Positions 46,491 through 61,058 of a DNA stretch of 64,000 bases are shown here, piece after piece (the first letter of the stretch is position 1; each line of letters starts with the position of its first letter). The translations under genes and the position numbers were made by a program. Origin of the DNA: an uncultured Bacteroidota bacterium (GTDB lineage Bacteria > Bacteroidota > Bacteroidia > JABEUT01). The stretch is from contig CAIPDV010000122.1 in assembly GCA_903863935.1 (NCBI GenBank), positions 1 through 64,000 on the forward strand. Direction: 5' to 3'. Below the pieces are notes generated by a model, which did no database searches, was not told where the DNA came from, and saw only the letters and a program-made list of their open reading frames with translations.

Positions 46491-48574
46491 GAGTGAGTAA
46501 TAAAATACATAAAGCTTATAAAGTGCATAAAGTAACGAGGTTGCTTTTAACATTATGCTTTATGCATTTTTCACTTGTAGGGTTTAGCCAGAATTTAGAT
46601 TTTGTAAAAAAGAACTTTAAAGATAATGTTAAGGGCTATAAAAAAGCAGTTGATTCCATAAAAAAAGGAAACTCGTATTACGATATGGGTGCGCATTACT
46701 ATAGGTACGCTATCTCCTATTATTTGAGTGCCGAGAATTTCTATGCCGATAATGCAAAGCTTAATTTTAAAATAGGCAAATGCATGATATATTCATCGCA
46801 GAAGAATAATGCGGCAAAATATTTAATAAAAGCTATTAAACTTGACCCTACGGCTAATACTGAAGCACATTATTACCTTGGCAGGGCACTTCATTTAAAT
46901 ATGTATTGGGATAGTGCTATTCGTGAATATAACACTTACCTTCAAACCTTAACTCCGGATAAAACCATGGAGATTTCAGATGTGCGAAAGAAAATTGAAG
47001 AATGCAACAATGGTAAATTAATAAGTCAGGCTCCAACAAGGGTTTTTGTGGATAATCTTGGTACTACTATTAATACCAAATACCCTGAATACCGTCCGTT
47101 AATTAATGCCGACGAAACAGAACTTATTTATACCTCGCGTATGCCTGCCAGCTCCGGTGATAAAATAGATATTACGGACGGTGAAAGTTTTGAAGATGTT
47201 TTTGTTTCCCATAACAAGAATGGGGCCTGGAGTACCTCTGTTAGCCTTAGTGCACCGGTTGACACAAAATCGCACGATGCAACCGCCGGGCTTTCTCCTG
47301 ACGGACACACATTGTACATATACAGAACCAACCAGAACGGGGATATTTACCAAACTCAATTCGCCAACAATTTGTGGTCGGCACCAAAAAGAGTTGATGA
47401 TAAAATTAATTCGGGCGGAAAAGAATCATCGCTTGCAATTTCGGCTGACGGAAAAGTAATTTACTTTATAAGCGACAAAATTGGTGGCTACGGAATGGGG
47501 GATATTTATAAAACGGTATTGGATGGTAATGGAAAATGGACCGATGCCCAGAACCTCGGACCAACCATTAATACCCAATACGATGAACAAGGTGTATTTC
47601 TTTCTCCGGATGGGTTAACACTCTACTTCAGTTCGAACGGACACAACACCATGGGTGGTTATGACATTTTCAAATCGACTTACAACTCGGGCCAATGGTC
47701 GGTGCCTGAAAACCTGGGATACCCTATAAATACCCCCGGCGACGATGTGTTTTTTGTTGCTCCTGCCAATAAGAAACATGCTTACTATTCTTCCAACCAG
47801 GATGGTGGCAGTGGAGATATGGATATCTATATGATCACTTTCCTTGGCCCTGAAAAGCCATTGTATATAAGCAACTCCCCTAACCTGCTTGCCGGAACTT
47901 CCAATATTCCGGATGTGATGATGAATGGGGCCGTTACAGTTGCCGCTTCAAATAAAGCCCTTCTAAGAGGAACGGTTGTTGACTCCGAAACCCACAAACC
48001 GCTTTTTGCAACTATTAAACTTGTAGATAATAAGAAAAACAAAGCTATTGCTGAATTTACTACCGACAGTGCCACTGGAAAATATGTGGTTTCGCTTTCT
48101 TCCGGTATCAATTATGGTATTGCTGTAACAGCTGATAATTACCTCTTCTATTCAGCTAATATTGATTTAACCGACTCATCTCACTACCGTGAAATTGAAA
48201 AGGATGTTGCTCTTCAACCTTTGCAAGTGGGCAGCCATATTGCATTACGTAATATATTCTTCGATTTCAATAAATCTACCTTACGTAAGGAATCAAACCC
48301 TGAATTGCAACGCGTAATTGACCTGATGAAAAAATACCCGACTATTAAAATTGAATTATCGGGGTACACCGACAATAAGGGGACACAGGCCTACAACCTC
48401 AAACTATCTGCCGCCCGTGCAAAATCAGTTATGACATATCTTACAACTCATGGAATTTCTGCCAAACGCATGACCTCAAAAGGTTATGGGGCAGATGATC
48501 CGGTTGCCTCCAATACAACTGATGAAGGCAGGCAGATGAACCGCAGAACGGAGTTTAAGATTACTGAGAGATAA
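46487..48574 (+). CDS. PorE-like OmpA family lipobox-less envelope protein (TPR, PD40 propeller, CarboxypepD_reg-like, OmpA)
   Basis: A 695-residue envelope protein with the four-part order described for the type IX secretion component PorE. It has N-terminal TPR units (about 25-150), a WD40-like PD40 propeller (about 185-450; GLSPDGHTLYIYR, AISADGKVIYFIS, LSPDGLTLYFSSNG), a carboxypeptidase regulatory-like domain (about 485-570) and a C-terminal OmpA peptidoglycan-binding domain (FFDFNKSTLRKES, LSGYTDNKGTQAYNLKLS). The frame also opens at TTG 46481, but the ATG at 46487 gives the ATGA overlap with the TPR gene and is preferred. It may anchor the secretion machinery to the cell wall. Confidence 0.88.
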   Translation: MRVSNKIHKAYKVHKVTRLLLTLCFMHFSLVGFSQNLDFVKKNFKDNVKGYKKAVDSIKKGNSYYDMGAHYYRYAISYYLSAENFYADNAKLNFKIGKCMIYSSQKNNAAKYLIKAIKLDPTANTEAHYYLGRALHLNMYWDSAIREYNTYLQTLTPDKTMEISDVRKKIEECNNGKLISQAPTRVFVDNLGTTINTKYPEYRPLINADETELIYTSRMPASSGDKIDITDGESFEDVFVSHNKNGAWSTSVSLSAPVDTKSHDATAGLSPDGHTLYIYRTNQNGDIYQTQFANNLWSAPKRVDDKINSGGKESSLAISADGKVIYFISDKIGGYGMGDIYKTVLDGNGKWTDAQNLGPTINTQYDEQGVFLSPDGLTLYFSSNGHNTMGGYDIFKSTYNSGQWSVPENLGYPINTPGDDVFFVAPANKKHAYYSSNQDGGSGDMDIYMITFLGPEKPLYISNSPNLLAGTSNIPDVMMNGAVTVAASNKALLRGTVVDSETHKPLFATIKLVDNKKNKAIAEFTTDSATGKYVVSLSSGINYGIAVTADNYLFYSANIDLTDSSHYREIEKDVALQPLQVGSHIALRNIFFDFNKSTLRKESNPELQRVIDLMKKYPTIKIELSGYTDNKGTQAYNLKLSAARAKSVMTYLTTHGISAKRMTSKGYGADDPVASNTTDEGRQMNRRTEFKITER

Positions 48575-48579
48575 TTACG

Positions 48580-48598
48580 AAATAAGGAGGTCTTATTT
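48580..48598 (+). terminator. Weak hairpin after the OmpA-like gene
   Basis: AAATAAG/CTTATTT with a GAGGT loop lies 6 nt after the stop codon and is followed by TTTTAAA-like sequence. The stem is AT-rich and the U-tract short, so termination would be weak. Confidence 0.35.
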
Positions 48599-48713
48599 TA
48601 AATATTGCTTAACCTCTTTGTTATTATCATTACCAAAAAATGCATTCCGGTTGATCCTGATGAAAGTCATCAAGCAATTTGATTCCTGTCATTTAAGTAG
48701 ATTAAAGCAGATG

Positions 48714-48721
48714 TACTTTTG
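48714..48721 (+). promoter_or_regulatory. Putative -7 box TACTTTTG in the leader of the CoA-transferase gene
   Basis: An exact TAnnTTTG match about 140 nt before the ATG at 48863 and about 76 nt before a strong terminator hairpin. A -33 element at normal spacing is not clear. Confidence 0.4.
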
Positions 48722-48727
48722 CATTGT

Positions 48728-48845
48728 AAAAATGAAGTTACTATAATCAACCTTAAAATAGAAACTAAAACTTCTTAAATTTCTGCTTTTCTTTTTAACC
48801 TGCCCCTAAAGGATTAACAGACGTCCTTTAGGGCAGGTTTTTTTA
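48728..48845 (+). ncRNA. Possible small RNA or attenuator leader
   Basis: If transcription starts about 7 nt after the TACTTTTG box, it would end at the strong intrinsic terminator at 48797-48844. That gives an RNA of about 118 nt placed between the OmpA-like gene and the acyl-CoA hydrolase/transferase gene. Readthrough would continue into the gene at 48863. No known RNA family was recognised, and the hairpin could instead be only the late terminator of the upstream operon. Confidence 0.3.
48797..48844 (+). terminator. Strong intrinsic terminator upstream of the CoA-transferase gene
   Basis: Arms 48797-48813 (AACCTGCCCCTAAAGGA) and 48824-48839 (TCCTTTAGGGCAGGTT) pair over 16 bp with one bulged C and a 10-nt loop, followed by seven Ts. 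It sits only 18 nt before the ATG at 48863. Confidence 0.85.
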
Positions 48846-48862
48846 TAAATAATTAATACCCC

Positions 48863-50149
48863 ATGACAAAAAACGTTAATTACATCTCGGCAACGGAAGC
48901 ATTATCAATTCTTAAATCTGGTGATAATGTTTTTATTCAAACGGCAGCGGCAGCACCCCAGCAACTTATTCATGCAATGACAGAAAGAGGAAAATCATTG
49001 GAAAATGTTTCCGTTTATCATTTGCATACTGAAGGGGCAACACCCTATGCAACAGAAGAAATGCACCCCCATTTTAATGTTCATTGCTTTTTTATTGGCC
49101 CTAACATGCGTGCATCGGTAAACAAGGGCATATCCGATTATATTCCTGTTTTCATGAGTGAGGTTCCTTACCTGTTCAGAAGAGGAATCATCAAGATCAA
49201 TGTGGCCTTGCTGCATGTATCTCCTCCTGATGAACACGGATATTGCAGCCTTGGGGTATCTGTTGATGCAGCATTGGCTGCAATTGAAAGTGCCCGGCAT
49301 ATTATAGCCCAGGTAAACCCGAATATGCCCCGAACCTTTGGCGGAAGCATTATTCATTCTTCCAGGTTTACAGCACTGGTAGAAGTTGATGAGCCTATTT
49401 TTGAAATTACTTCCGGAGAAGCTAATGAAACCGATTTAATGATAGCCCAAAATGTTGCGAGCCTTATAGAAGACGGTGCTACACTGCAAATGGGAATTGG
49501 AAAAATACCAAATGCTGTGCTTGCTAAACTACATAACCATAAGCAACTGGGTGTGCACACCGAAATGTTTTCGGATGGTATTATTGACCTAGTTGAAAAT
49601 GGAGTGATAACAGGAGAACTGAAGAAAATAGATAAAGGCAAAATAGTTAGCGGGTTTGCAATGGGGACTCGTAAATTATATGATTACATCGACAATAATC
49701 CTTTATTCGAAATGCACGAATCATCGTATGTGAACGACACACAGAATATCAGGAAAAACCCTAAGGTTACTGCCATTAACAGTGCCATTGAGGTGGATAT
49801 AACAGGGCAAGTGTGTGCCGATTCAATTGGCAGTTATTTGTACTCGGGTGTAGGAGGGCAAATGGATTTTATGAGAGGTGCTTCTTTATCGGAAGGTGGA
49901 AAACCCATCATAGCAATGCCATCAATTACAAATAAAGGAGCTTCTAAAATTGTGGGGACACTTAAATTAGGTTCCGGAGTTGTTACAACACGCGCACACG
50001 TACACTATATTGTTACTGAATATGGAGTTGCTGACCTTTATGGAAAAAACATTAAACAACGAGTAAAGGAATTTATAAAAATAGCTCATCCGGCCCATCG
50101 TGATAACCTGGCCAAAGAAGCTTTTGAAACATTTAAGATATTGTTTTAG
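48863..50149 (+). CDS. Acetyl-CoA hydrolase / 4-hydroxybutyrate CoA-transferase family protein
   Basis: A 428-residue class I CoA-transferase-type protein. Conserved blocks are VFIQTAAAAPQQLIHAM, LHVSPPDEHGYCSLGVSVDA, MQMGIGKIPNA-type LQMGIGKIPNAVL, the predicted catalytic Glu234 in HTEMFSDGI, and GGQMDFMRGASLSEGGKPI with VVTTRAHVHYIVTEYGVADLYGK. It exchanges CoA between short-chain acids or hydrolyses acetyl-CoA. The exact substrate is unclear. It lies behind a terminator-containing leader. Confidence 0.9.
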   Translation: MTKNVNYISATEALSILKSGDNVFIQTAAAAPQQLIHAMTERGKSLENVSVYHLHTEGATPYATEEMHPHFNVHCFFIGPNMRASVNKGISDYIPVFMSEVPYLFRRGIIKINVALLHVSPPDEHGYCSLGVSVDAALAAIESARHIIAQVNPNMPRTFGGSIIHSSRFTALVEVDEPIFEITSGEANETDLMIAQNVASLIEDGATLQMGIGKIPNAVLAKLHNHKQLGVHTEMFSDGIIDLVENGVITGELKKIDKGKIVSGFAMGTRKLYDYIDNNPLFEMHESSYVNDTQNIRKNPKVTAINSAIEVDITGQVCADSIGSYLYSGVGGQMDFMRGASLSEGGKPIIAMPSITNKGASKIVGTLKLGSGVVTTRAHVHYIVTEYGVADLYGKNIKQRVKEFIKIAHPAHRDNLAKEAFETFKILF

Positions 50150-50348
50150 CAACCAGGAGAAGTTCATTATTTCTTTCTTGCATTTTTTATATTTTTTAAT
50201 TAAGATATTTTCCACATGATTCAACGCGGATGATGGCAATCAGCCAATCGGATTGATATTGATCACCTGCACTCATTAATTATTCATATTTTAACTTTAT
50301 TTGATTACATATTTAACCAAGAGTACATGATTTAAATTAGGTACTACC

Positions 50349-50364
50349 TGTGATAATTGTCATG
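50349..50364. promoter_or_regulatory. CRP-like palindrome upstream of the REC-Crp/Fnr gene
   Basis: TGTGATAATTGTCATG fits TGTGA-N6-TCACA with a perfect left half-site and 3 of 5 bases in the right. It lies 59 nt before the regulator's ATG, so autoregulation is plausible. It is also near an imperfect -7-like CATGTTTG. No other strong signal was seen in 50150-50422. Confidence 0.35.
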
Positions 50365-50422
50365 TTTGCATTACTCATTTCAATATCTCTTTGTAATCAA
50401 ATTATTCGGTTAAATTCTGGAG

Positions 50423-51487
50423 ATGAATAAATTGCTAGTTATTACGGGAAATGTATCAGCCGGAGAAGGGGTAAAGAAACTCCCCCAACTGTCAGGATAC
50501 GAAACTCATTTTGCCACATCGGGAATGCAGGGTATTGAATTGGCAAAAACTGAGAACCCCACTTTTATTATTTGCGATACGATCCTCCCCGATATTGACG
50601 GATACTGTGTTTCAACCATGCTTTCTAAAAACGGGCCAACCGAAAATATTCCGGTTTTACTATTGAAACTTTCCGGTGGTGCCGCAAGTTCCGGTATAAC
50701 GAAGGATGTATTGGAGGTACTGATTCCTGTTGCTAATAGCATGCCATCTATCCATTCCCTAACTAAGACTGCCAATCTTCAAAACAATACTGCCCCTCCG
50801 GAATATTCCCCAAGCATGAACAATCTGCTTCAACTTTTAAGCAGCCCAAACCCGGAAAAAATATCCAACGATAGTTTAACAGGTTACAGAACACGAAGCT
50901 TTAATAAACGTGAAAATATTTACTACGAAGGAGATGAACCGAATATGGTTTATCTTGTTAAAAAAGGGAAAATCAAGACTGTAAAACTTGGCCCGGAAGG
51001 AAAAGAATTTATTATTGATATTCACGAAAAAGGAGAATTTTTTGGCTATATAGCCGTGCTTGAGAATAGCACTTATCCTGATACGGCTGTTGCCGCAGAA
51101 GAATCTGAAGTATTGTTAATTCCAAAGGATGATTTCCTTTTGCTTATTAATTCAGACCAGCAATTGGGTCGGCATTTTATTAAACTCCTGGCTAACGACA
51201 TCAGCGATATTGAGGAACGACTGATGACGCTAGCATTTAATTCCGTTCGTGCCCGCGTGGCAGGCGCGCTATTACAATTAAAGAAAAAACATCACAACAA
51301 AAAAGAGTATACTACTTATACACTTCATGTTTCCCGCGATGATCTGGCAGGATTAATCGGTACAACAACAGAATCACTCATCAGAACACTTACCGATTTT
51401 AAACATGAAAATATTGTAGATACAGACATTGGAGAGATAAAGATCCTCGACATTAAAGCCCTCGAAAAAATCAGGCGATTATCATAA
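50423..51487 (+). CDS. Crp/Fnr family regulator with N-terminal degenerate receiver domain
   Basis: A 354-residue transcription factor with an unusual order: a receiver-like domain (about 1-110), a linker, a cyclic-nucleotide-binding fold (about 150-265) and a Crp-type HTH (about 290-350, VSRDDLAGLIGTTTESLIRTL). The receiver keeps Asp52 in IICDTILPDIDGY, but the acidic pair is replaced (LLVITGN) and the conserved Lys is absent (IP instead of KP), so ordinary phosphorylation is doubtful. The sensor pocket GEFFGYIAVLENSTYPDTAVA lacks the Arg needed for cAMP. No Fnr cysteine cluster is seen. It heads a five-gene operon, 18 nt before the first lyase. Confidence 0.9.
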   Translation: MNKLLVITGNVSAGEGVKKLPQLSGYETHFATSGMQGIELAKTENPTFIICDTILPDIDGYCVSTMLSKNGPTENIPVLLLKLSGGAASSGITKDVLEVLIPVANSMPSIHSLTKTANLQNNTAPPEYSPSMNNLLQLLSSPNPEKISNDSLTGYRTRSFNKRENIYYEGDEPNMVYLVKKGKIKTVKLGPEGKEFIIDIHEKGEFFGYIAVLENSTYPDTAVAAEESEVLLIPKDDFLLLINSDQQLGRHFIKLLANDISDIEERLMTLAFNSVRARVAGALLQLKKKHHNKKEYTTYTLHVSRDDLAGLIGTTTESLIRTLTDFKHENIVDTDIGEIKILDIKALEKIRRLS

Positions 51488-51505
51488 ACTAAAACATATT
51501 CATTC

Positions 51506-52912
51506 ATGAAAAACAAAACAGTTACAATACCTATCCGGCAAAAACGGTCGTGGGCCGAACCTTACAAAATTAAGATGGTTGAACCCATTCATATGACAAC
51601 TGAAAAAGAAAGGGCAAAATGCCTTGCGGATGCAGGGTATAATACATTTCTTTTACGCTCCAAAGACGTATATATTGATTTATTAACCGATAGCGGAACA
51701 TCTGCCATGAGCGACCGTCAGTGGGCCGCCTTAATGTTAGGTGATGAAGCGTATGCAGGTAGCAGCAATTTTTATAACCTGGAAGCGGCCGTAACAAAAT
51801 ATTACGGCTATAAATACACCATACCTACGCACCAGGGAAGAGGTGCCGAGCATATTATATCTCAAATTCTTATCAAGAAAGGGGATATAATACCTGGCAA
51901 CATGTATTTCACCACAACACGACTTCACCAGGAAATTGCAGGAGGAACTTTTATTGATGTTATTATTGATGAAGCTCACGATCCGGACAGCACTCATCCT
52001 TTTAAAGGCAATGTAGATATTGGCAAAATGGAGGATGTAATTAAGAAATACGGAGCTTCAAAAATACCATATATATGCGTTGCTACTTCTGTAAATATGG
52101 CTGGTGGGCAACCTATATCAATCGCCAATTTGAAAGAGCTGAGAAAACTTACCCAGAAGCATGGTATAAGGATTGTCCATGATATGACACGAGTAGCAGA
52201 AAATGCTTTTTTCATTCAACAAAGAGAGGCCGGATATAAATCAAAATCCATAGCACAAATCGTTCTTGAAATTTGCAGGCTTACGGATATCGCTACCATG
52301 AGTGCAAAAAAAGACGCACTGGTAAACATAGGTGGAATACTTGCAATGAATGATGAAAAACTTTTATCGGAAGCACAGAACCTGGCAGTGGTTTACGAAG
52401 GGCTGCATACGTACGGTGGCCTTGCGGGTCGCGACATGGAAGCGATGTCGGTAGGTATTTCAGAATCCGTGCAGGATGACCATATTCGAGCCAGAATAGG
52501 ACAAGTTGAATATTTGGGAAACCACATTCAGGCAAGTGGCGTTCCTGTGGTTCTTCCTTTTGGAGGCCATGGTATTTTTTTAAATGCCAAGAAAATACTG
52601 GAACATGTACCGCAAGATAATTTTCCTGCCCAGGCTTTGACAGCAGAGATATACAGGGACTCAGGTGTTAGAAGCATGGAACGAGGAATAGTTTCATCGG
52701 GCCGTGATAAAAAAACAGGAAAAAACATTTACCCTAAACTCGAATTAGTAAGACTGACAATTCCTCGCCGGGTATATACTCAGGCGCACATGGATGTTGT
52801 TGCTGAATCGGTTGAAAGGGTTTATCAGGAGCGAAAAAAAATCAAAGGTCTTAAAATGGTTTACGAGCCTGAATATCTTCGTTTCTTTCAAGCAAAATTT
52901 AAAAAACTTTAA
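51506..52912 (+). CDS. Tyrosine phenol-lyase-like beta-eliminating lyase
   Basis: A 468-residue PLP enzyme of the tyrosine phenol-lyase/tryptophanase family. The core TDSGTSAMSDRQWAALMLGD and PLP Lys269 in TMSAKKDALVNIGG are intact. At the three sites that separate the enzymes it has the phenol-lyase residues: Thr136 in MYFTTTR (TPL Thr124), Arg393 in SMERG (TPL Arg381) and Phe460 in LRFFQAKF (TPL Phe448). It is therefore predicted to split tyrosine to phenol, pyruvate and ammonia. It is followed 2 nt later by a tryptophanase-type paralogue. Annotation pipelines would probably call both tryptophanase. Confidence 0.85.
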   Translation: MKNKTVTIPIRQKRSWAEPYKIKMVEPIHMTTEKERAKCLADAGYNTFLLRSKDVYIDLLTDSGTSAMSDRQWAALMLGDEAYAGSSNFYNLEAAVTKYYGYKYTIPTHQGRGAEHIISQILIKKGDIIPGNMYFTTTRLHQEIAGGTFIDVIIDEAHDPDSTHPFKGNVDIGKMEDVIKKYGASKIPYICVATSVNMAGGQPISIANLKELRKLTQKHGIRIVHDMTRVAENAFFIQQREAGYKSKSIAQIVLEICRLTDIATMSAKKDALVNIGGILAMNDEKLLSEAQNLAVVYEGLHTYGGLAGRDMEAMSVGISESVQDDHIRARIGQVEYLGNHIQASGVPVVLPFGGHGIFLNAKKILEHVPQDNFPAQALTAEIYRDSGVRSMERGIVSSGRDKKTGKNIYPKLELVRLTIPRRVYTQAHMDVVAESVERVYQERKKIKGLKMVYEPEYLRFFQAKFKKL

Positions 52913-52914
52913 AC

Positions 52915-54297
52915 ATGGTGGAATTTAAAACCATTATTGAGCCCTTTAAAATAAAGGTGATCGAGCCAATCCGGATTACAACTGAAGAGGAACGCAAACA
53001 ATACCTGAAAGAAGCAAATTACAATCTTTTCAGTTTGAAATCTGATCAGGTAATTATTGATTTCCTTACTGACAGCGGTACATCTGCCATGAGCGATAAC
53101 CAATGGGCCGGATTGATGCTGGGTGATGAATCGTATGCGGGTTCAAAAAGCTGGGATAGGATGAGGGAATCTATTCACTCTCTCACGGGTTATCCATACA
53201 TCTTCCCAACCCACCAGGGTAGGGCTGCAGAACGCATTGTTTATGGCAAACTTGGAGGACCAGGTAAGGTTTTTATAAGCAACACACACTTCGACACAAC
53301 ACGTGCCAATATAGAGGTAACAGGTGCAGAAGCTATTGATATACCAATTGCAGAAGCTAAGGAAAGGAATGTTCTTCATCCATTTAAAGGAAACATGAAT
53401 ATTGAAAAACTGGAAACATTGGTGGCTCAATATGGAAAAGAAAAAATAGGGGCCGTTATATTAACAGTTACTAACAACAGCAGCGGTGGCCAACCTGTGA
53501 GCATGGAAAATGCAATTCAGATAAGCAACATTTGCCGTGATCATGAGTTACTTTTTATTCTCGATTGTTGCCGAATTGCCGAAAACGCCTACTTTATTAA
53601 ACATCGGGAAGAAGGTTTTGAAAACACAAGTTATTTCGATATAGCCCGAAAAATGTTCGCTCTGGCAGATGGCTGCATTATGAGTGCAAAAAAAGATGCC
53701 ATTGTAAACATGGGCGGATTTTTCGCTTTAAAGGATAAAGATTTTGCAGACAAATGCCGCGAAACTCTTATTATAACTGAAGGATACATTACCTACGGTG
53801 GTTTATCAGGCAGAGATATGGAGACTATTGCTACCGGCCTTCAGGAAGTTTTTGACCCCGATTATCTTCACTACCGAATTAGCAGCACTGGTTACCTTGG
53901 AAAAAAACTGCATGAAATGGGGGTGCCGGTTATGTTGCCAATTGGCGGCCATGCCGTTTATGTGGATGCAAAAGAACTTTATTCCCATATTCCACCGGAA
54001 AGTTATCCGGGTCAGGCATTAGCTTGCGAACTCTATATTAAAGGCGGAATCCGTTCTTGTGAAATTGGCTCTGTTATGTCAGGCCATGAGGATGTAGATG
54101 GAAAATTTATATGCGCACCTATGGAACTTGTGCGGCTAGCTATTCCACGAAGGGTTTATACGCAAAGCCATATCGAATATGTTATTGAAGTTTTTGAAAA
54201 AATATTGGAAGATAAGGAGAAAATAAAAGGCTATAAAATTATTGAAGCCCCTCATTTTTTAAGACATTTTACGGCCAAGTTTCAACAATTAGTTTAA
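52915..54297 (+). CDS. tnaA: Tryptophanase (tryptophan indole-lyase)
   Basis: A 460-residue PLP lyase paralogous to its neighbour. PLP Lys260 is in IMSAKKDAIVNMGG. The specificity residues are those of tryptophanase: Asp127 in HFDTTR (E. coli Asp137), Ile384 in SCEIG (Ile394) and His451 in LRHFTAKF (His463). It is predicted to convert tryptophan to indole, pyruvate and ammonia. No tnaC-like leader or tnaB permease is present; the gene is translated 2 nt after the phenol-lyase-like gene and 3 nt before a cytochrome c gene. Confidence 0.87.
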   Translation: MVEFKTIIEPFKIKVIEPIRITTEEERKQYLKEANYNLFSLKSDQVIIDFLTDSGTSAMSDNQWAGLMLGDESYAGSKSWDRMRESIHSLTGYPYIFPTHQGRAAERIVYGKLGGPGKVFISNTHFDTTRANIEVTGAEAIDIPIAEAKERNVLHPFKGNMNIEKLETLVAQYGKEKIGAVILTVTNNSSGGQPVSMENAIQISNICRDHELLFILDCCRIAENAYFIKHREEGFENTSYFDIARKMFALADGCIMSAKKDAIVNMGGFFALKDKDFADKCRETLIITEGYITYGGLSGRDMETIATGLQEVFDPDYLHYRISSTGYLGKKLHEMGVPVMLPIGGHAVYVDAKELYSHIPPESYPGQALACELYIKGGIRSCEIGSVMSGHEDVDGKFICAPMELVRLAIPRRVYTQSHIEYVIEVFEKILEDKEKIKGYKIIEAPHFLRHFTAKFQQLV

Positions 54298-54300
54298 TGT

Positions 54301-54762
54301 ATGGCTCCCCTGCCCCCAACAGAAAACAACACAGGTTTTTCGAACACTTTTAAAATAGCTGCGATATCCATTATTCTAACGCTTTTTGCCGGATACACAA
54401 TTTGGGTTGATACAGGAAATATCGGTCTTCAGAAACCACACATTGCAACAGGTATCGCAGCGGATGGAAAATTATTATTCCAAAAATACAATTGCCAGGC
54501 TTGCCACCAGATCTATGGCCTCGGCGGGTATATGGGGCCAGATTTGACCAATGTTTATTCCACTCCGAATAAAGGCTCGTTATACATTAATGCATTTTTA
54601 CAAAATGGCACAAACCGGATGCCAAATTTTCATTTAAGCCAACAGGAAATTTCCTCACTCACTGCCTATTTAGCAACTGTTGACTCAACCGGAAATTCAC
54701 CTATTCTGAAACATAAAACATCCTGGTATGGATCCATTGAATTCAGCTACAAAAGTCAATAA
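54301..54762 (+). CDS. NorC-like membrane-anchored cytochrome c
   Basis: A 153-residue protein with one N-terminal membrane anchor (about 16-34) and a single periplasmic haem c. The haem motif is Cys65-Gln-Ala-Cys68-His69, followed by QIYGLGGYMGPDLTNVYS and the predicted axial Met107 in GTNRMPNF. This matches NorC, the electron-entry subunit of cytochrome-c-dependent nitric oxide reductase. Its 3' end overlaps the NorB-like gene by 35 nt, and it begins 3 nt after the tryptophanase stop. Confidence 0.9.
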   Translation: MAPLPPTENNTGFSNTFKIAAISIILTLFAGYTIWVDTGNIGLQKPHIATGIAADGKLLFQKYNCQACHQIYGLGGYMGPDLTNVYSTPNKGSLYINAFLQNGTNRMPNFHLSQQEISSLTAYLATVDSTGNSPILKHKTSWYGSIEFSYKSQ

Positions 54763-56107
54763 AACTGCTCTTTGCTTCATTCTGCTTAGCCTCATTTGCT
54801 TGCTGGGAGGAGCCTTGTTTGGCTGCATTGCTGCTTTACAATTTGTATATCCTGATTTTCTTCGCACTCTGCCATTCTTTAAAAACCGTCCGTTGCATGT
54901 TTCACTCGTTATTTCCTGGATATTCCTTAGTGCAACAGGCGGCATATACTACTACCTTCCTATTATTGGTAAAGGGTTCTGGCAAACTTTCAAAATGCAA
55001 AAACTCCATCTTATTTTATTTATTGTAACAGGTATTTGCATTTTGTCTTGCTATGTGCTGGGTATATTCGGCGGGCGGGAATATTGGGAATATCCTCCTG
55101 TGTTTTCAATCTGTATTATTATCACATGGATAATTTTCGCATTCAATTTTTTCCTATCCATTACCGGGTTTAAAGGCAAATGGCCGGTCTATATCTGGAT
55201 GTGGGCAACCGGGGTAATATTTTTCTTCCTCACTTTCAGTGAATCGTATTTATGGCTGCTGCCTGCTATTCGCAATGATCCGCTGCGCGATGTTACTATC
55301 CAATGGAAAGCTTATGGTTCGCTTGTTGGCTCATGGAATATGCTCGTATACGGAACAGGTATCTTTCTCATGGAAAAGATCTCCGGAAACCCGGAAGTAT
55401 CCAGATCAAAAACAGCATTTCTTTTGTATATGCTGGGGTTTATAAATTTAATGTTCGGCTGGGCGCATCACATCTATGTAGTGCCTATCAGTCCGTGGAT
55501 TAGGAATATTTCTTATGTCGTAAGCATGAGTGAGTGGATCTTGCTTTTCCGTATGATTTACAGCTGGCGAAAAACAGTCACAAAAGCACAGGAACACCTT
55601 TGGTCGTTTTCATTCCGGTTCTTACTAACTTCCGATATCTGGATCTTTCTCAATATTATTCTTGCGTTATTGATTTCTATTCCTGCAATTAATGCATATA
55701 CGCATGGCACTCATATTACAGTGGCCCACGCAATGGGAAGCACCATTGGAATTAACACAATGATCTTACTGGCCTCCTGTTTTTTTATTGCTAACGACGC
55801 TTCAAATGGAAGGGCAAAAACAGGCCAGGATAAATTGCAGCTATGGGGATGGGCTATTTTAAATCTTTCGCTTTTGTTTTTTTGGATAATGTTGATTATA
55901 GCCGGACTCAGGAAAGGGTTGATGGTTGTGCAAGGAATATCATTTTCGGAAATAATGATTGCAATAACACCTTACCTAAAACTTTTTGCATTTTCAGGAC
56001 TGGGGATTTTTACCGGGCTATCATTACTTATTACCCCTTTGAGTATTAAGCTTTGTAAAACCATTCTCTCTTCCCGGAACAGCATTATTAAAACTACTAT
56101 AAGCTGA
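54728..56107 (+). CDS. Divergent NorB-like haem-copper superfamily protein with altered active site
   Basis: A 459-residue polytopic membrane protein with about twelve helices, collinear with NorB of nitric oxide reductase: FGCIAALQFVYPDF, RPLHVSLVISW, GREYWEYPP, GWAHHIYVVP, THGTHITVAHAMG. Compared with my recollection of Pseudomonas NorB, His57 (haem b), His247/His248 (FeB), Glu269 (Glu280) and His334 (haem b3) are kept. FeB ligand His207 is Tyr196, Glu211 is Val200, Glu215 is Asn204, and haem-b ligand His349 is Met336. Normal NO reduction is therefore doubtful. The start overlaps norC-like by 35 nt. Last gene of the operon. Confidence 0.85.
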   Translation: MDPLNSATKVNKTALCFILLSLICLLGGALFGCIAALQFVYPDFLRTLPFFKNRPLHVSLVISWIFLSATGGIYYYLPIIGKGFWQTFKMQKLHLILFIVTGICILSCYVLGIFGGREYWEYPPVFSICIIITWIIFAFNFFLSITGFKGKWPVYIWMWATGVIFFFLTFSESYLWLLPAIRNDPLRDVTIQWKAYGSLVGSWNMLVYGTGIFLMEKISGNPEVSRSKTAFLLYMLGFINLMFGWAHHIYVVPISPWIRNISYVVSMSEWILLFRMIYSWRKTVTKAQEHLWSFSFRFLLTSDIWIFLNIILALLISIPAINAYTHGTHITVAHAMGSTIGINTMILLASCFFIANDASNGRAKTGQDKLQLWGWAILNLSLLFFWIMLIIAGLRKGLMVVQGISFSEIMIAITPYLKLFAFSGLGIFTGLSLLITPLSIKLCKTILSSRNSIIKTTIS

Positions 56108-56162
56108 TTTCAATCATCCTATTTAGAAGAGTAATATCATCTTTAATTTTTGGGATTCAAAA

Positions 56163-56170
56163 TAAATTTG
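56163..56170 (+). promoter_or_regulatory. Putative -7 box TAAATTTG upstream of nadA
   Basis: An exact TAnnTTTG match 25 nt before the GTG start of nadA. It suggests nadA-nadB can be transcribed separately from the NorB-like operon. Confidence 0.4.
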
Positions 56171-56195
56171 CCGATTAATTATTTACCCATAAAAA

Positions 56196-57170
56196 GTGGA
56201 ACAACTTGAGATAACATCCATTAAGAAAGAAATACAGCGGCTTAAAAAAGAAAAAAATGCTGTTGTGCTTTCACATTATTATATGACGCCTGAATTGCAG
56301 ACTCTGGCAGGTAAAGGGGGCGTTGCTGATTTTGTAGGAGATTCGCTGGGTTTAAGTATTGAGGCCACGAGAGTTACCCAACAGAATATTATTTTTTGCG
56401 GAGTAAGGTTTATGGCGGAGACCGCCAAAATTCTGAATCCTTCAAAAAACGTTTTCATCCCTGATAAAGATGCAGGGTGTTCGTTAGCTTCCAGTATTAC
56501 TGCGGCTGATGTAATAAAACTAAGACAGCAACATCCGGGAATACCTGTGATTGCATATATTAATACCTATGCCGCAACCAAAGCCGAATGCGACATTTGC
56601 TGCACTTCGCGAAATGCATTAAACATAGCGAAGTCATTTGATTCCGGTACATTAATTTTTGTTCCGGATGTGCACATGGGTCACAACCTTCAAAAGAAAA
56701 TTGCAGAAGAAACAGGGAAAAAATTAATTCTTTGGAATGGAATTTGTGATGTGCACGAACAATTTTCCGGTTCATCTTTAAAGGCATTAAAAGAAATATA
56801 CCCCCGTGCAGAGTTTCTTCTCCACTGGGAGGTTCCGGAAGATGCCGTTGCGGTATCTTTAAACAACAGAAAAGGAGTTCTTGGAAGTACAAATGATATT
56901 CTCAGGTATGCAGGGGAAAGTGCTTCAAAGCAATTTATACTTGCTTCGGAATGTGACCTGGGTGCAACCCTAAAAGGTATGTATCCCGAAAAGGAATTCA
57001 TTACCCCGTGCATCCGTTGCCCGAACATAAAAAAGATAAATCTGAATAATTTGCTGAAAACATTGGAGGCAATTGATACTTCCGAATCAGGAAGATTTGA
57101 AATAACTCTCGATCAGGAATTAATCCGGAGGGCCTATATTCCTATTAAAAGGATGCTTCAATTCGCGTGA
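56196..57170 (+). CDS. nadA: Quinolinate synthase, GTG start
   Basis: A 324-residue 4Fe-4S enzyme that condenses iminoaspartate with dihydroxyacetone phosphate to quinolinate for NAD synthesis. Motifs: LSHYYMTPELQ, GVRFMAETAKILNP, and the likely cluster cysteines in DAGCSLASS (Cys95), NGICDVHEQF and CIRCPNIKKI. No ATG is available before LSHYYM, so the GTG at 56196 is the start. It overlaps nadB by 4 nt (GTGA). Confidence 0.95.
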   Translation: MEQLEITSIKKEIQRLKKEKNAVVLSHYYMTPELQTLAGKGGVADFVGDSLGLSIEATRVTQQNIIFCGVRFMAETAKILNPSKNVFIPDKDAGCSLASSITAADVIKLRQQHPGIPVIAYINTYAATKAECDICCTSRNALNIAKSFDSGTLIFVPDVHMGHNLQKKIAEETGKKLILWNGICDVHEQFSGSSLKALKEIYPRAEFLLHWEVPEDAVAVSLNNRKGVLGSTNDILRYAGESASKQFILASECDLGATLKGMYPEKEFITPCIRCPNIKKINLNNLLKTLEAIDTSESGRFEITLDQELIRRAYIPIKRMLQFA

Positions 57171-58747
57171 AAAAGATCAGTGCTGATATAGTTGTTATTG
57201 GCAGCGGTATTGCAGGCTTATTCTATGCTTTGAAATGCGCTGCTTTTTCCAAGGTCCTCATTATTACAAAAGGTAAAATCGGCGAATCGAACACCATGTT
57301 TGCGCAAGGCGGAATTGCCGCAGTTTTCGGAACGGATGATTCAACCGTCTCACATAAACTGGATACAATGGTTACAGGTGATGGGTTAAGTGACGAAACT
57401 GTTACAGACTTTGTTGTTTCCAATGCTCGAAAATGTATTCTTGAACTGGAGAGGCTTCGAGTCCATTTTGATAAAAATGATTCAGGAGGGTTTGACTTAC
57501 ACAAAGAAGGTGGTCACTCCCACGCCAGAGTTGTTCATACTGTGGATGCAACAGGACGGGAAGTAGAAAACTCACTTGTGAAAGCAGTACTTAGTAATAA
57601 CAATATCTCTGTAAAAGAAAACTGTTTTGTGGTTGATTTAATTATAGAAGAAGATTGCTGCAAGGGTATTATTGCACTTGAAAAAGAAGATAGTCAATTA
57701 CTGGAAATCAACTCAAAAATTGTTATGCTTGCCACAGGCGGAGCAGGACAGATTTATGCTTTGAATACAAATCCAACTATAGCAACCGGAGATGGATATG
57801 CTATAGCTTATAGGGCTGGTGCAGAACTAAAAAACATGGAATTTGTTCAGTTTCACCCTACGGTTCTCTACTCACCCGGCAAGGACACCTTCCTTATTAC
57901 CGAAGCTTTGCGTGGCTTTGGTGCAGAATTAAAAGACAGTAAGGAAAAAACCTTCATGGAAAAATATCACCCCATGAAATCACTTGCTCCAAGAGACATT
58001 GTTTCCCGCGCGATTTTCAATGAACTACGGCGCAGTAATGATAATTGCGTTTTTCTTGATGCTAAAGGCATTGATGCAACTGAGCTAAAAAACCATTTCC
58101 CGACTATATTCAATACATTAAAAGAACAGGGGATTAATTGCACAAAAGAAATGATCCCGGTTGTTCCTGCCGCTCATTATATGTGCGGTGGGGTTGCAGT
58201 TAATTTGAATTCCGAAACAACCATTAAAAACCTTTTTGCCTGCGGCGAAGTTGCATGCACGGGGCTACATGGTGCAAACAGACTGGCCAGTAATTCCTTG
58301 CTGGAAGGCCTTGTATTTGCCGAACAGGCTGCTATTACAACTGAAAGAAGAATGAGTAAAACTGTTCACATAGGTGAGATTTCAATTACAAAAAACTTGA
58401 AGCTAGATTTGAAAGAGGATAGCACAATTCGGCAGGTAAAAGAAAAGGTTCAGAAGACTATGTGGAAATATGCAGGTATTGTGAGAAGCGCAGAGGGCTT
58501 ACTTGCTTGCATTAAAACCTTACAAGACTTACATAGAGTAATCCGGCTTAAAATTGATTCGAATGGAATTAACGTTGCAACACTCGAACTTTTGAACCTG
58601 ATCGAAACTTCTTTGATGGTTGTAACATCGGCACTGCAACGTATAGAAAGCCGAGGTTGCCATTTCCGGGAAGATTTTCCATTCAAATCACATATATCGG
58701 CGATCCCAGAACAGATTAACTTGAAGCTTGTATCACAAACACGCTAA
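57167..58747 (+). CDS. nadB: L-aspartate oxidase, GTG start
   Basis: A 526-residue FAD enzyme that oxidises aspartate to iminoaspartate, using oxygen or fumarate. The FAD fold is VVIGSGIAGLFYALKCA, with SNTMFAQGGIAAVF, EFVQFHPT and HYMCGGVAV as in the succinate dehydrogenase flavoprotein family, and GLHGANRLASNSLLEGLVF near the C-terminal third. The GTG start overlaps the nadA stop as GTGA, so the two are translationally coupled. nadC is not in this window. Confidence 0.96.
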   Translation: MKKISADIVVIGSGIAGLFYALKCAAFSKVLIITKGKIGESNTMFAQGGIAAVFGTDDSTVSHKLDTMVTGDGLSDETVTDFVVSNARKCILELERLRVHFDKNDSGGFDLHKEGGHSHARVVHTVDATGREVENSLVKAVLSNNNISVKENCFVVDLIIEEDCCKGIIALEKEDSQLLEINSKIVMLATGGAGQIYALNTNPTIATGDGYAIAYRAGAELKNMEFVQFHPTVLYSPGKDTFLITEALRGFGAELKDSKEKTFMEKYHPMKSLAPRDIVSRAIFNELRRSNDNCVFLDAKGIDATELKNHFPTIFNTLKEQGINCTKEMIPVVPAAHYMCGGVAVNLNSETTIKNLFACGEVACTGLHGANRLASNSLLEGLVFAEQAAITTERRMSKTVHIGEISITKNLKLDLKEDSTIRQVKEKVQKTMWKYAGIVRSAEGLLACIKTLQDLHRVIRLKIDSNGINVATLELLNLIETSLMVVTSALQRIESRGCHFREDFPFKSHISAIPEQINLKLVSQTR

Positions 58748-58797
58748 TTCATAGCAATTTACCAACTCATTTTATAAGCCATTCCATGTTATTTAAA

Positions 58798-58821
58798 ATT
58801 ATCCTATTTTTACAGGATAAT
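58798..58821. promoter_or_regulatory. Short perfect palindrome upstream of the C10 protease gene
   Basis: ATTATCCT (58798-58805) and AGGATAAT (58814-58821) are perfect reverse complements around an 8-nt T-rich loop, 15 nt before the ATG. It could be an operator or a 5' leader hairpin. It lacks a terminator T-tract. Confidence 0.35.
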
Positions 58822-58835
58822 AATATCCCGTTTCA

Positions 58836-61058
58836 ATGAAAAAGAATTTACTTATCACTTTTTCCCTGTTTGTTTCAATTGGAGTAATGAATGCAAAACC
58901 GATTCCGGTATCGGTGGCGCAAAGAGTTGCTTCAAACTTTTATGCGCAAAATTCCAAAACCGCTGTTAGCGGAATTACATTGGCATATACCGAAACCACT
59001 AATACAATTGGTACGCTTTACTATGCCTTCAATGTAAATTCTGGTTTTGTAATAATTGCTGCCGATGATGCCATCAGCCCAGTGCTTGGATATTCTACCG
59101 AAGGTAATTATGTAGTTCCGCAACCCGGAACCAATGCCTATTTCTGGATGCAAAATGAGGCGAGTCATATAACTTACATTAAACAACAAAACTTTAAGGC
59201 TTCAACTCAAGTTTCGGAAGAATGGAATGCACTTCAAAATAATACAAGGCTTTCTCATAGGGCTTTGCATGCTCCTATTTCGGTTGCACCTTTATGTGCC
59301 ACTACCTGGGATCAGCCTTATCCTTATAATACTATGTGTCCAGGAGGGTCTGTTACCGGTTGCGTGGCAACCTGCATGGCTCAGGTTATGAAATATTGGA
59401 ATTACCCTGCTCACGGAATTGGCTCGAGTTTTTATTATGAAACCAGCCCTGAAAATTATGGTCTGTTGCAAGCGAACTATGACACTTCTGCCTATGTATG
59501 GACTGCCATGCCTAATAAGGTTTCAACAGTTAATAAACAAGTTTCAAAATTAATGATGGACTGCGGTGTAAGCGTTGATATGTCATACTCACCAAGCGAA
59601 AGCGGTGCTTGGGTGGTAGCTTCCGATAATAAAATTTGCGCTCAGAATTCGTATGTTCAATATTTCGGATACAATGCTAAAACGATTCAGGGAATACTCC
59701 GGAAAAACTATTCCGATTCAGCATGGATTGCAGTAATTGATAGTGAACTTACCAGTAAACGTGTTATGGAATATGCAGGTTGGGATTCCGTTTATGGAGG
59801 ACACACATGGGTTTGCGATGGCTTTGATTCCACCAACATGTTGCACATGAACTGGGGCTGGAGTGGTTCTGACAATGGCTTTTTTAAACTCGATACATTA
59901 AATCCAAGACCCTATTTCTGGTCGAAAAAAGAAGAACTTGTAATAGGAATTGAACCTCCGGTATTGGCTGCCGCATTTGACGCTGCACCGACAAATGGTT
60001 GTGTTGGAACCATTGTAAACTTTACTGACAGAAGCCTTGTTTCAGATCCTACAAAACCAATTACTAACTGGCAATGGAGTTTCCCGGGTGGATATCCAAA
60101 TTCAGCCAATTCGCCTAATGCTACTGTAACTTATAGTTCAGCAGGAACATATCCGGTAACCCTTACGGTCAGCAGCATTAACGGAACCGATTCTGTTACT
60201 AAGAAAACATTTATTACTGTTGAAGGCCCCAACCCACTTCCTTTTGTCCAAAACTTCGAAACAATTTTCCCTCCTGCGCAATGGGCTATATACAATCCAT
60301 ATTTACACCCAGCTTCGTGGAGTCAATACAACGGAACAGGTGGTTTTGGAAACAGTAGCCACTGTATGTATTTCAACAACTGTCAATATGGAAATAAAGG
60401 AACCCGCGACAGGATAAATACACCCGTTTATGACCTTTCAACAGTTACAAACCCATTTATCTATTTTGATGTGGCCTACACACCTTACAATACAATATAT
60501 AGCGATAGTCTTGCGGTTTACTACTCTCTTGATTGTGGAAATACTTTTACCAGAGTTTATTTAAAAGGCGGAATGAATTTATGCACCACCGGAGGAATAA
60601 CAGTTATTCAGGGAGCAAATTCCGATATGAATGGTTGCTTTCTTCCACTAAGTAATAACTGGAGAACAGATACAGTAATGATTCCAGCAATAGCAGGGCA
60701 ATCGAATGTTATGTTTGCCTTTGAGAACAGGTCAGGTAATGGTTCGAATATTTTCCTCGACAATATTAATATTCCAATACCAACGGGAATTGATAACCTG
60801 GATGAAAGCACTTCATTGAATGTTTATCCAAATCCGAATGACGGCAGTTTCTCCATTACATTCAATACACTTTCCGGCATTAATTATGAAGTGTCGGTAT
60901 ACAATGTATTAGGTCAGCAAATCATGAGTAAAACTATTCAAAATGGCAGTGGAAAATATGTATATCCTGTAAATCTCTCACAGTATGGTAAAGGAGTTTA
61001 CTCCATAGTATTAAGGAATGGAGAGAAACAATCCATTCAAAAAGTTTCGGTTTACTAA
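58836..61058 (+). CDS. Secreted C10 (streptopain-like) cysteine protease with T9SS type A domain
   Basis: A 740-residue secreted protease. Signal peptide (1-20, GVMNA), an inhibitory Spi-type prodomain (about 21-130), then the papain-fold C10 domain with nucleophile Cys176 in VTGCVATCMAQVMKYW and His323 in GGHTWVCDGF, followed by NWGWSGSDNGFF. A PKD domain (about 385-465) and a beta-rich adhesion-type domain (about 470-650) precede the C-terminal T9SS type A domain (LNVYPNPNDGSFSI, GKGVYSIVLRNG, KVSVY). It is probably exported and anchored through type IX secretion to degrade proteins. Confidence 0.94.
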   Translation: MKKNLLITFSLFVSIGVMNAKPIPVSVAQRVASNFYAQNSKTAVSGITLAYTETTNTIGTLYYAFNVNSGFVIIAADDAISPVLGYSTEGNYVVPQPGTNAYFWMQNEASHITYIKQQNFKASTQVSEEWNALQNNTRLSHRALHAPISVAPLCATTWDQPYPYNTMCPGGSVTGCVATCMAQVMKYWNYPAHGIGSSFYYETSPENYGLLQANYDTSAYVWTAMPNKVSTVNKQVSKLMMDCGVSVDMSYSPSESGAWVVASDNKICAQNSYVQYFGYNAKTIQGILRKNYSDSAWIAVIDSELTSKRVMEYAGWDSVYGGHTWVCDGFDSTNMLHMNWGWSGSDNGFFKLDTLNPRPYFWSKKEELVIGIEPPVLAAAFDAAPTNGCVGTIVNFTDRSLVSDPTKPITNWQWSFPGGYPNSANSPNATVTYSSAGTYPVTLTVSSINGTDSVTKKTFITVEGPNPLPFVQNFETIFPPAQWAIYNPYLHPASWSQYNGTGGFGNSSHCMYFNNCQYGNKGTRDRINTPVYDLSTVTNPFIYFDVAYTPYNTIYSDSLAVYYSLDCGNTFTRVYLKGGMNLCTTGGITVIQGANSDMNGCFLPLSNNWRTDTVMIPAIAGQSNVMFAFENRSGNGSNIFLDNINIPIPTGIDNLDESTSLNVYPNPNDGSFSITFNTLSGINYEVSVYNVLGQQIMSKTIQNGSGKYVYPVNLSQYGKGVYSIVLRNGEKQSIQKVSVY

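Follow-up and report, generated by a model that had tools for sequence, protein, structure and literature searches.

A divergent norCB-like gene pair of Bacteroidota whose product keeps four of the six signature haem-copper histidines

Identification of the NorB-like protein and its homologues

The window considered here, the whole 64,000-nucleotide stretch of DNA from an uncultured Bacteroidota bacterium that was analysed, carries a gene pair resembling norCB of the cytochrome c-dependent nitric oxide reductases (cNOR). The features of the locus are listed in Table 1. The NorB-like protein was recognized here by a generic oxidase profile only (Pfam COX1, 114 bits against a cut-off of 34.8). 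Following a phmmer search of all PDB sequences, NorB chains alone were matched, namely 3o0r_B (E-value: 1.4e-13) and 4xyd_A. An initial sequence-only reading of the locus had suggested that a structure be modelled; the resulting AlphaFold2 model (pLDDT 87.9, pTM 0.90) was found by Foldseek to be nearest to cNOR (TM 0.80-0.84), with CcoN of the cbb3 oxidases as the second-best match. Both the Pfam match and the comparison of the model with haem-copper oxidase (HCO) structures show the 12-helix fold of an HCO subunit I, and the protein can be aligned with cNOR NorB over its whole length by phmmer, hhalign and AlphaFold2/Foldseek.

Table 1. Features of the norCB-like locus, with positions in the window
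Feature	Position	Strand	Evidence or remark
FNR-type palindrome TGATGGCAATCA, 5' of operon	50231..50242
FNR-type palindrome TGATATTGATCA, 5' of operon	50254..50265
Receiver + CRP/FNR-type regulator, first gene of putative operon	50423..51487	+	Pfam cNMP_binding 1.3e-22, HTH_Crp_2 3.8e-16, Response_reg 4e-07
Tyrosine phenol-lyase, same putative operon as norCB-like genes	51506..52912	+	TIGR02618, 743 bits > cut-off 720.7
Tryptophanase-like beta-eliminating lyase, same putative operon as norCB-like genes	52915..54297	+	PRK13238, 673 bits > cut-off 285
NorC-like membrane-anchored mono-haem cytochrome c (C65xxC68H69, Met107)	54301..54762	+	Pfam Cytochrome_CBB3 1.6e-10; 35-nt overlap with norB-like gene
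NorB-like haem-copper-superfamily subunit I, 459 aa	54728..56107	+	COX1 Pfam 9.9e-33; 3o0r_B 1.4e-13; AlphaFold2 pLDDT 87.9; Foldseek NorB TM 0.80-0.84
His57 codon (NorB His60), haem-b ligand kept	54896..54898	+	Alignment, codon; invariant 46/46
Tyr196 codon (NorB His207), FeB ligand lost	55313..55315	+	Alignment, codon; Y/G/N/A in family
Val200 codon (NorB Glu211), FeB ligand position	55325..55327	+	Alignment, codon; Val/Thr in family
Asn204 codon (NorB Glu215)	55337..55339	+	Alignment, codon; Asn invariant in family
His247-His248 codons (NorB His258-His259)	55466..55471	+	Alignment, codon; invariant
Glu269 codon (NorB Glu280)	55532..55534	+	Alignment, codon; invariant
His334 codon (NorB His347), proximal haem-b3 ligand	55727..55729	+	Alignment, codon; invariant
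Met336 codon (NorB His349), haem-b ligand position	55733..55735	+	Alignment, codon; Met invariant
FNR-type palindrome TGATTTCAATCA, 5' of nadA	56105..56116
Quinolinate synthase NadA	56196..57170	+	TIGR00550 > cut-off; near family gene in 26/49 loci
L-aspartate oxidase NadB	57167..58747	+	TIGR00551 > cut-off; near family gene in 23/49 loci

When 84,980 species genomes were scanned, 48 homologues at 44-57 % identity were identified, nearly all of them in Bacteroidota and many in cultured Flavobacterium; in a sample of the phylum, the family was present in 8 of 396 genomes. An additional candidate from this sample (L088) turned out to possess all six histidines and is a regular haem-copper oxidase. 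Two homologue contigs labelled as Proteobacteria and Bifidobacterium breve (L012 and L044) are probably mis-binned contigs of metagenome-assembled genomes. No description of the clade was found in the open-licence literature, the coverage of which was incomplete, and these respiratory enzymes appear to be a branch that has not been studied so far; their hosts, cultured Flavobacterium and further Bacteroidota among them, are common in fresh water and soil.

Active-site residues

In canonical NorB, FeB is held by His207, His258, His259 and Glu211. Six histidines, among them His207 and His349, are taken as the signature of haem-copper enzymes. The sequence-only reading had placed Tyr196, Val200, Asn204 and Met336 of the window's protein at NorB positions His207, Glu211, Glu215 and His349, and these assignments were confirmed: the segment from helix VI to the His-His pair is free of gaps in both the phmmer and hhalign alignments with NorB, hhalign scored 99.8 % when the profile of 46 family members was set against that of 14 canonical NorBs, and the ligand codons were checked directly in the DNA. 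A one-residue gap introduced by MAFFT, which paired Gly197 with His207, was gone when more reference sequences were used. A shift of register that would restore His and Glu to the FeB site was also sought, and the helix-VI motif, QWKxxGSxVGSWN, contains neither residue in either register.

His57, Asn204, the His247-His248 pair, Glu269, His334 and Met336 are identical in all 46 family sequences, a degree of invariance that is far beyond chance. These positions include every residue that had been read as kept (His57, His247, His248, Glu269 and His334) as well as the methionine predicted as partner of the low-spin haem. A clade sharing Tyr, Val, Asn and Met, as initially envisaged, was found in part: no sequence departs from Asn204 or Met336, and position 200 holds Val in 44 sequences and Thr in two, but position 196 is Tyr in 13, Gly in 29 and Asn in four, with Ala in L085. 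As residue 196 varies in this manner, it can be neither a ligand nor a replacement ligand, and residue 200, being Val or Thr, is no ligand either. The family thus retains four of the six universal HCO histidines, with Tyr, Gly, Asn or Ala at the position of His207 and Met at that of His349. From the cNOR FeB ligand set it retains His258 and His259 alone, and from the catalytic glutamate pair it retains Glu280, the position of Glu215 being an invariant Asn.

These assignments support the conclusion that the canonical FeB site (three His and one Glu) cannot form in the family. The proposal that the protein holds a different second metal or none therefore stands as far as the canonical site is concerned, but because Asn204, the His-His pair and Glu269 are all invariant, a 2-His-1-Glu metal site is possible.

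Phylogeny and selection

In a tree constructed with cNOR, qNOR, NO-dismutase-type and CcoN references, the NorB-like clade is monophyletic (support 100/99). It is excluded from the group formed by cNOR and qNOR (100/99), and a grouping of cNOR with the clade is rejected (AU p=0.0015), with long branches as a caveat to both results. Based on this position, the clade would be a separate sister-type NOR-like lineage and not a decayed cNOR. The same position modifies the earlier claim of ligand loss: His207 and His349 have clearly been lost, but the two glutamates may never have existed in this lineage. Values of dN/dS between close family pairs are mostly 0.03-0.13 (range 0.03-0.30), and the clade is under strong purifying selection. 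These values, together with the invariant residues, rule out that the norB-like gene is a decaying pseudogene. The clade keeps only four of the six signature histidines, yet is maintained by selection. It is conceivable, although we hold this with somewhat less than even confidence, that the clade represents a new haem-copper lineage branching beside the known NO reductases. Its low-spin haem b would then have His/Met ligation, its haem-b3 pocket would be devoid of canonical FeB and CuB, and its reaction, with a nitrogen oxide or oxygen, would be one that is new to the superfamily.

Electron input and FeB insertion

A NorC partner had been claimed for this protein, and a NorC-like cytochrome c of the cNOR type does adjoin the norB-like gene in 47 of 49 loci. 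The CxxCH motif and the axial Met107 are invariant among 21 aligned partners. In the NorB-like subunit, the cNOR GREYxE motif (the haem-propionate/Ca region) is largely kept, as is His326. Because the NorC haem ligands, the GREYxE region and His326 are all retained, the electron path from haem c via haem b to haem b3 is predicted to be intact.

FeB insertion in cNOR depends on NorQ and NorD, and cNOR produced without norQDEF is fully hemylated, FeB-less and inactive; qNOR is independent of the NorQD helpers (PMC9976466). Our test of cNOR maturation covered NorD, which is half of this insertase, and its docking motif. Of 47 family genomes, 12 encode NorD, and each of these 12 also carries a canonical cNorB; no NorD was found in the 34 family genomes that lack canonical cNorB. 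The VDRE surface motif with which cNOR docks NorD is absent from the family. The absence of both therefore lends independent support to a complex that is never given FeB via the cNOR route, but it does not prove that the pocket is empty, as qNOR needs no NorQD and a bound metal is still possible. The clade may thus offer a natural FeB-less NorBC in which to ask what haem b3 does alone.

Comparison with known haem-copper enzymes

The family most resembles the cNOR NorBC of P. aeruginosa (3O0R) and R. denitrificans (4XYD) in fold, in length, in the NorC-like gene located just upstream and in the haem-b3 His, His60, the His-His pair, Glu280 and the GREYxE region. It differs from cNOR in lacking His207, Glu211, Glu215, His349, the NorD-docking motif and a NorD gene, in its identity of approximately 20 % and in its position outside of the cNOR+qNOR clade. 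qNOR (NorZ) shares the HCO/NOR fold and does without NorQD, but it is a chain of approximately 750 aa with an N-terminal cytochrome-like domain and other ligands, whereas the family protein has 459 aa, a cytochrome c encoded by a separate gene and a clade of its own. The NO dismutases (NOD) are likewise NOR homologues with changed FeB-site residues, but the set that is changed is the opposite one: NOD-type sequences keep His207, Glu211, Glu215 and His349, change His259 to Asn and Glu280 to Gln and have lost electron input (PMC3413370), while the family keeps His248, Glu269 and its cytochrome c and falls outside of qNOR. The cbb3 oxidase subunit CcoN has the HCO fold in common with the family, and there is a weak match to the ccoN profile (E-value: 1.6e-8), but the score is 33.9 bits against a cut-off of 583, and CcoN possesses all six histidines, two of which are missing here. 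The alternative reductases sNOR, eNOR, gNOR and CuANOR also have a substituted active-site residue (N, Q or D; PMC8756737). They are described with a cupredoxin-type subunit II, in contrast to the mono-haem cytochrome c of the family, and the family's His changes are not listed for them; this distinction is one of description, the reference tree covering cNOR, qNOR, NO-dismutase-type and CcoN sequences. Genome surveys that score genes of this clade as norB would give a wrong picture of which organisms reduce NO.

Genomic context and regulation

CRP/FNR-type regulators cluster with the family gene in 30 of 49 loci. The regulator that opens the putative operon of the window is a receiver domain fused to a CRP/FNR-type protein; homologues elsewhere are mostly shorter. 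Other recurrent neighbours are NadA and NadB, the anaerobic ribonucleotide reductase proteins NrdD/NrdG, the B12-dependent NrdJ, Rrf2 regulators, the Fe-S repair protein RIC and Nos genes with a fasciclin lipoprotein. Tyrosine phenol-lyase and tryptophanase-like genes lie beside the norCB-like genes and nadAB in the window (51506-54297) and also in L016, L029 and L035. The lyases and nadAB could perhaps mark a switch from O2-dependent use of tryptophan to anoxic NAD synthesis.

The palindrome TGAT-N4-ATCA is found upstream of the norC-like gene in 15 of 46 loci (0.4 expected) and also upstream of nadA, ric, nrdJ and the gene cluster c11. The window contains four such sites (1.94 expected in 64 kb), three of which lie in the two relevant upstream intergenic stretches. 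The E. coli FNR consensus, TTGAT-N4-ATCAA, shows no upstream enrichment at up to one mismatch, and no Rfam elements were found in 48500-59500. Cluster c11 (L026:18258-20066, 16 loci) encodes proteins of approximately 600 aa with no Pfam or NCBIfam match, and TGAT-N4-ATCA lies upstream in 8 of the 16.

NosZ is encoded in 36 of 47 family genomes and RIC in 41 of 47. Nitrite reductases are less frequent (NirK in 12/47 and NirS in 1/47, giving 13 genomes with a nitrite reductase), so many hosts of the clade have an N2O reductase but no nitrite reductase. In the phylum sample, NosZ occurs in seven of eight clear family positives compared to 122 of 388 other genomes (p=0.002, with kinship ignored). 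A link to the DNRA enzyme NrfA was rejected, as this protein is absent from all 47 family genomes. Canonical cNorB is accompanied by NirK in 12 of the 13 family genomes that have it, and there the divergent genes frequently lie at a distance of 10-25 kb; the divergent enzyme is therefore no substitute for cNorB. In F. croceum and F. caeni, the family gene was the sole NOR homologue identified. In three Bacteroidota genomes (G001, G002 and G013; loci L063, L064 and L065), a NO-dismutase-type qNOR (His259 to Asn, Glu280 to Gln) is encoded at a distance of approximately 4-16 kb from the divergent norCB pair. The window's own genome contains no NosZ, NirK, NirS, NrfA, RIC, canonical NorB or NorD, and besides the norB-like gene it has only two A-type oxidases. 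With these proteins missing, the link to NO is indirect for this genome; the genes next to the norCB-like pair are nadAB and those of the aromatic amino acid lyases.

Proposed function

The best reading of these data is that the NorCB-like complex is a cytochrome c-fed dihaem oxidoreductase of an anoxia/nitrogen-oxide regulon, with its distal pocket rebuilt and with His and Met as the predicted ligands of haem b. Judging by its residues, it is unlikely to be a canonical denitrification NOR; its reaction probably differs from textbook nitric oxide reduction, and it probably acts on NO or a related compound. Electrons would pass from a periplasmic donor to the NorC haem c, then to a high-potential haem b with His57 and Met336 as ligands and on to haem b3, which would be five-coordinate on His334. 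At haem b3 a small oxidant would be bound and reduced, the likeliest candidates being NO and related nitrogen oxides, with His247, His248, Glu269 and Asn204 of the distal pocket as a source of protons or hydrogen bonds. This pocket would be free of metal, or would at most have one that is held by two His and one Glu and inserted independently of NorQD. The complex would be turned on with the FNR-type anoxia/nitrogen-oxide regulon, and its most likely role would be protection or electron drainage in cells that face low O2 or NO from outside; many of these cells would be N2O respirers without nitrite reductase. That the complex reduces NO or another nitrogen oxide in this manner, fed by cytochrome c, regulated by anoxia, lacking canonical FeB and serving as a protective or electron-draining system, is our tentative proposal, to which we give slightly less than an even chance.

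The residues most readily counted against a metal-free pocket are the His-His pair and Glu269, as their invariance could mean that a metal is bound and that the chemistry is truly that of a NOR. The protein would then be a working NO reductase with a rebuilt site, in which His247, His248 and Glu269 (with Asn204 or water) form a facial triad holding Fe or another metal beside haem b3. A metal-free pocket does not require that these residues and Asn204 be invariant in 46/46 sequences, and active-site residues can change, as in the NO dismutases (PMC3413370) and in sNOR, eNOR and gNOR (PMC8756737). Nevertheless, the canonical set of four FeB ligands is reduced to two, NorD and its docking motif are absent (although qNOR also manages without them), and we consider this alternative unlikely, if still a serious one.

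The neighbouring genes suggest another possibility, namely a cytochrome c-fed peroxidase or O2 scavenger in which a metal-free haem b3 with distal histidines reduces H2O2 or O2, shielding the anaerobic enzymes encoded nearby, which are sensitive to O2 and radicals (NrdD, NadA and the targets of RIC). Such an enzyme would account for the proximity of O2-sensitive or O2-independent enzymes (NadA, NrdDG and NrdJ) and would need the electron path, predicted to be intact, but not canonical NOR chemistry. The association with NosZ and RIC favours nitrogen oxides over peroxide, however, and renders this function improbable.

There is little likelihood that the complex is a non-catalytic electron-transfer or assembly partner, for example of NosZ or of c7, a cryptic HCO-fold protein encoded just upstream in many Flavobacterium loci. 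NosZ is present in most family genomes, as noted above, but 11 of 47 lack it and many loci lack c7; furthermore, a mere wire would not need an invariant proximal haem-b3 His or a distal His-His pair and Glu.

The sequence-only reading had also raised the possibility of a gas-binding sensor, and a regulatory pseudo-enzyme of this type would be in keeping with the loss of canonical catalytic residues and with the regulator gene that adjoins many loci. The conserved haem c/haem b electron input and the lack of a signalling domain speak against a pure gas sensor; sensing could be the task of the neighbouring CRP/FNR regulator itself, and we regard the chance of a sensor as slim. An enzyme similar to the NO dismutases, converting NO to O2 and N2, is hardly credible in spite of the NOD-type qNORs encoded in three of the genomes, as the ligand pattern is unlike that of NOD, the clade is not in qNOR and the cytochrome c partner is kept here, whereas NODs lack electron input (PMC3413370).

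The c7 family (L035:8323-9555 and 19 further loci) has 12 transmembrane segments, no Pfam or NCBIfam match and a CcoN/NorB-like fold (Foldseek TM 0.72-0.73). Only three of its histidines (46, 181 and 317) are invariant, and its genes are located near the norCB-like genes in Flavobacterium, often beside the fasciclin lipoprotein gene. c7 is thus a cryptic haem-copper-fold protein that is more degenerate than the NorB-like family.
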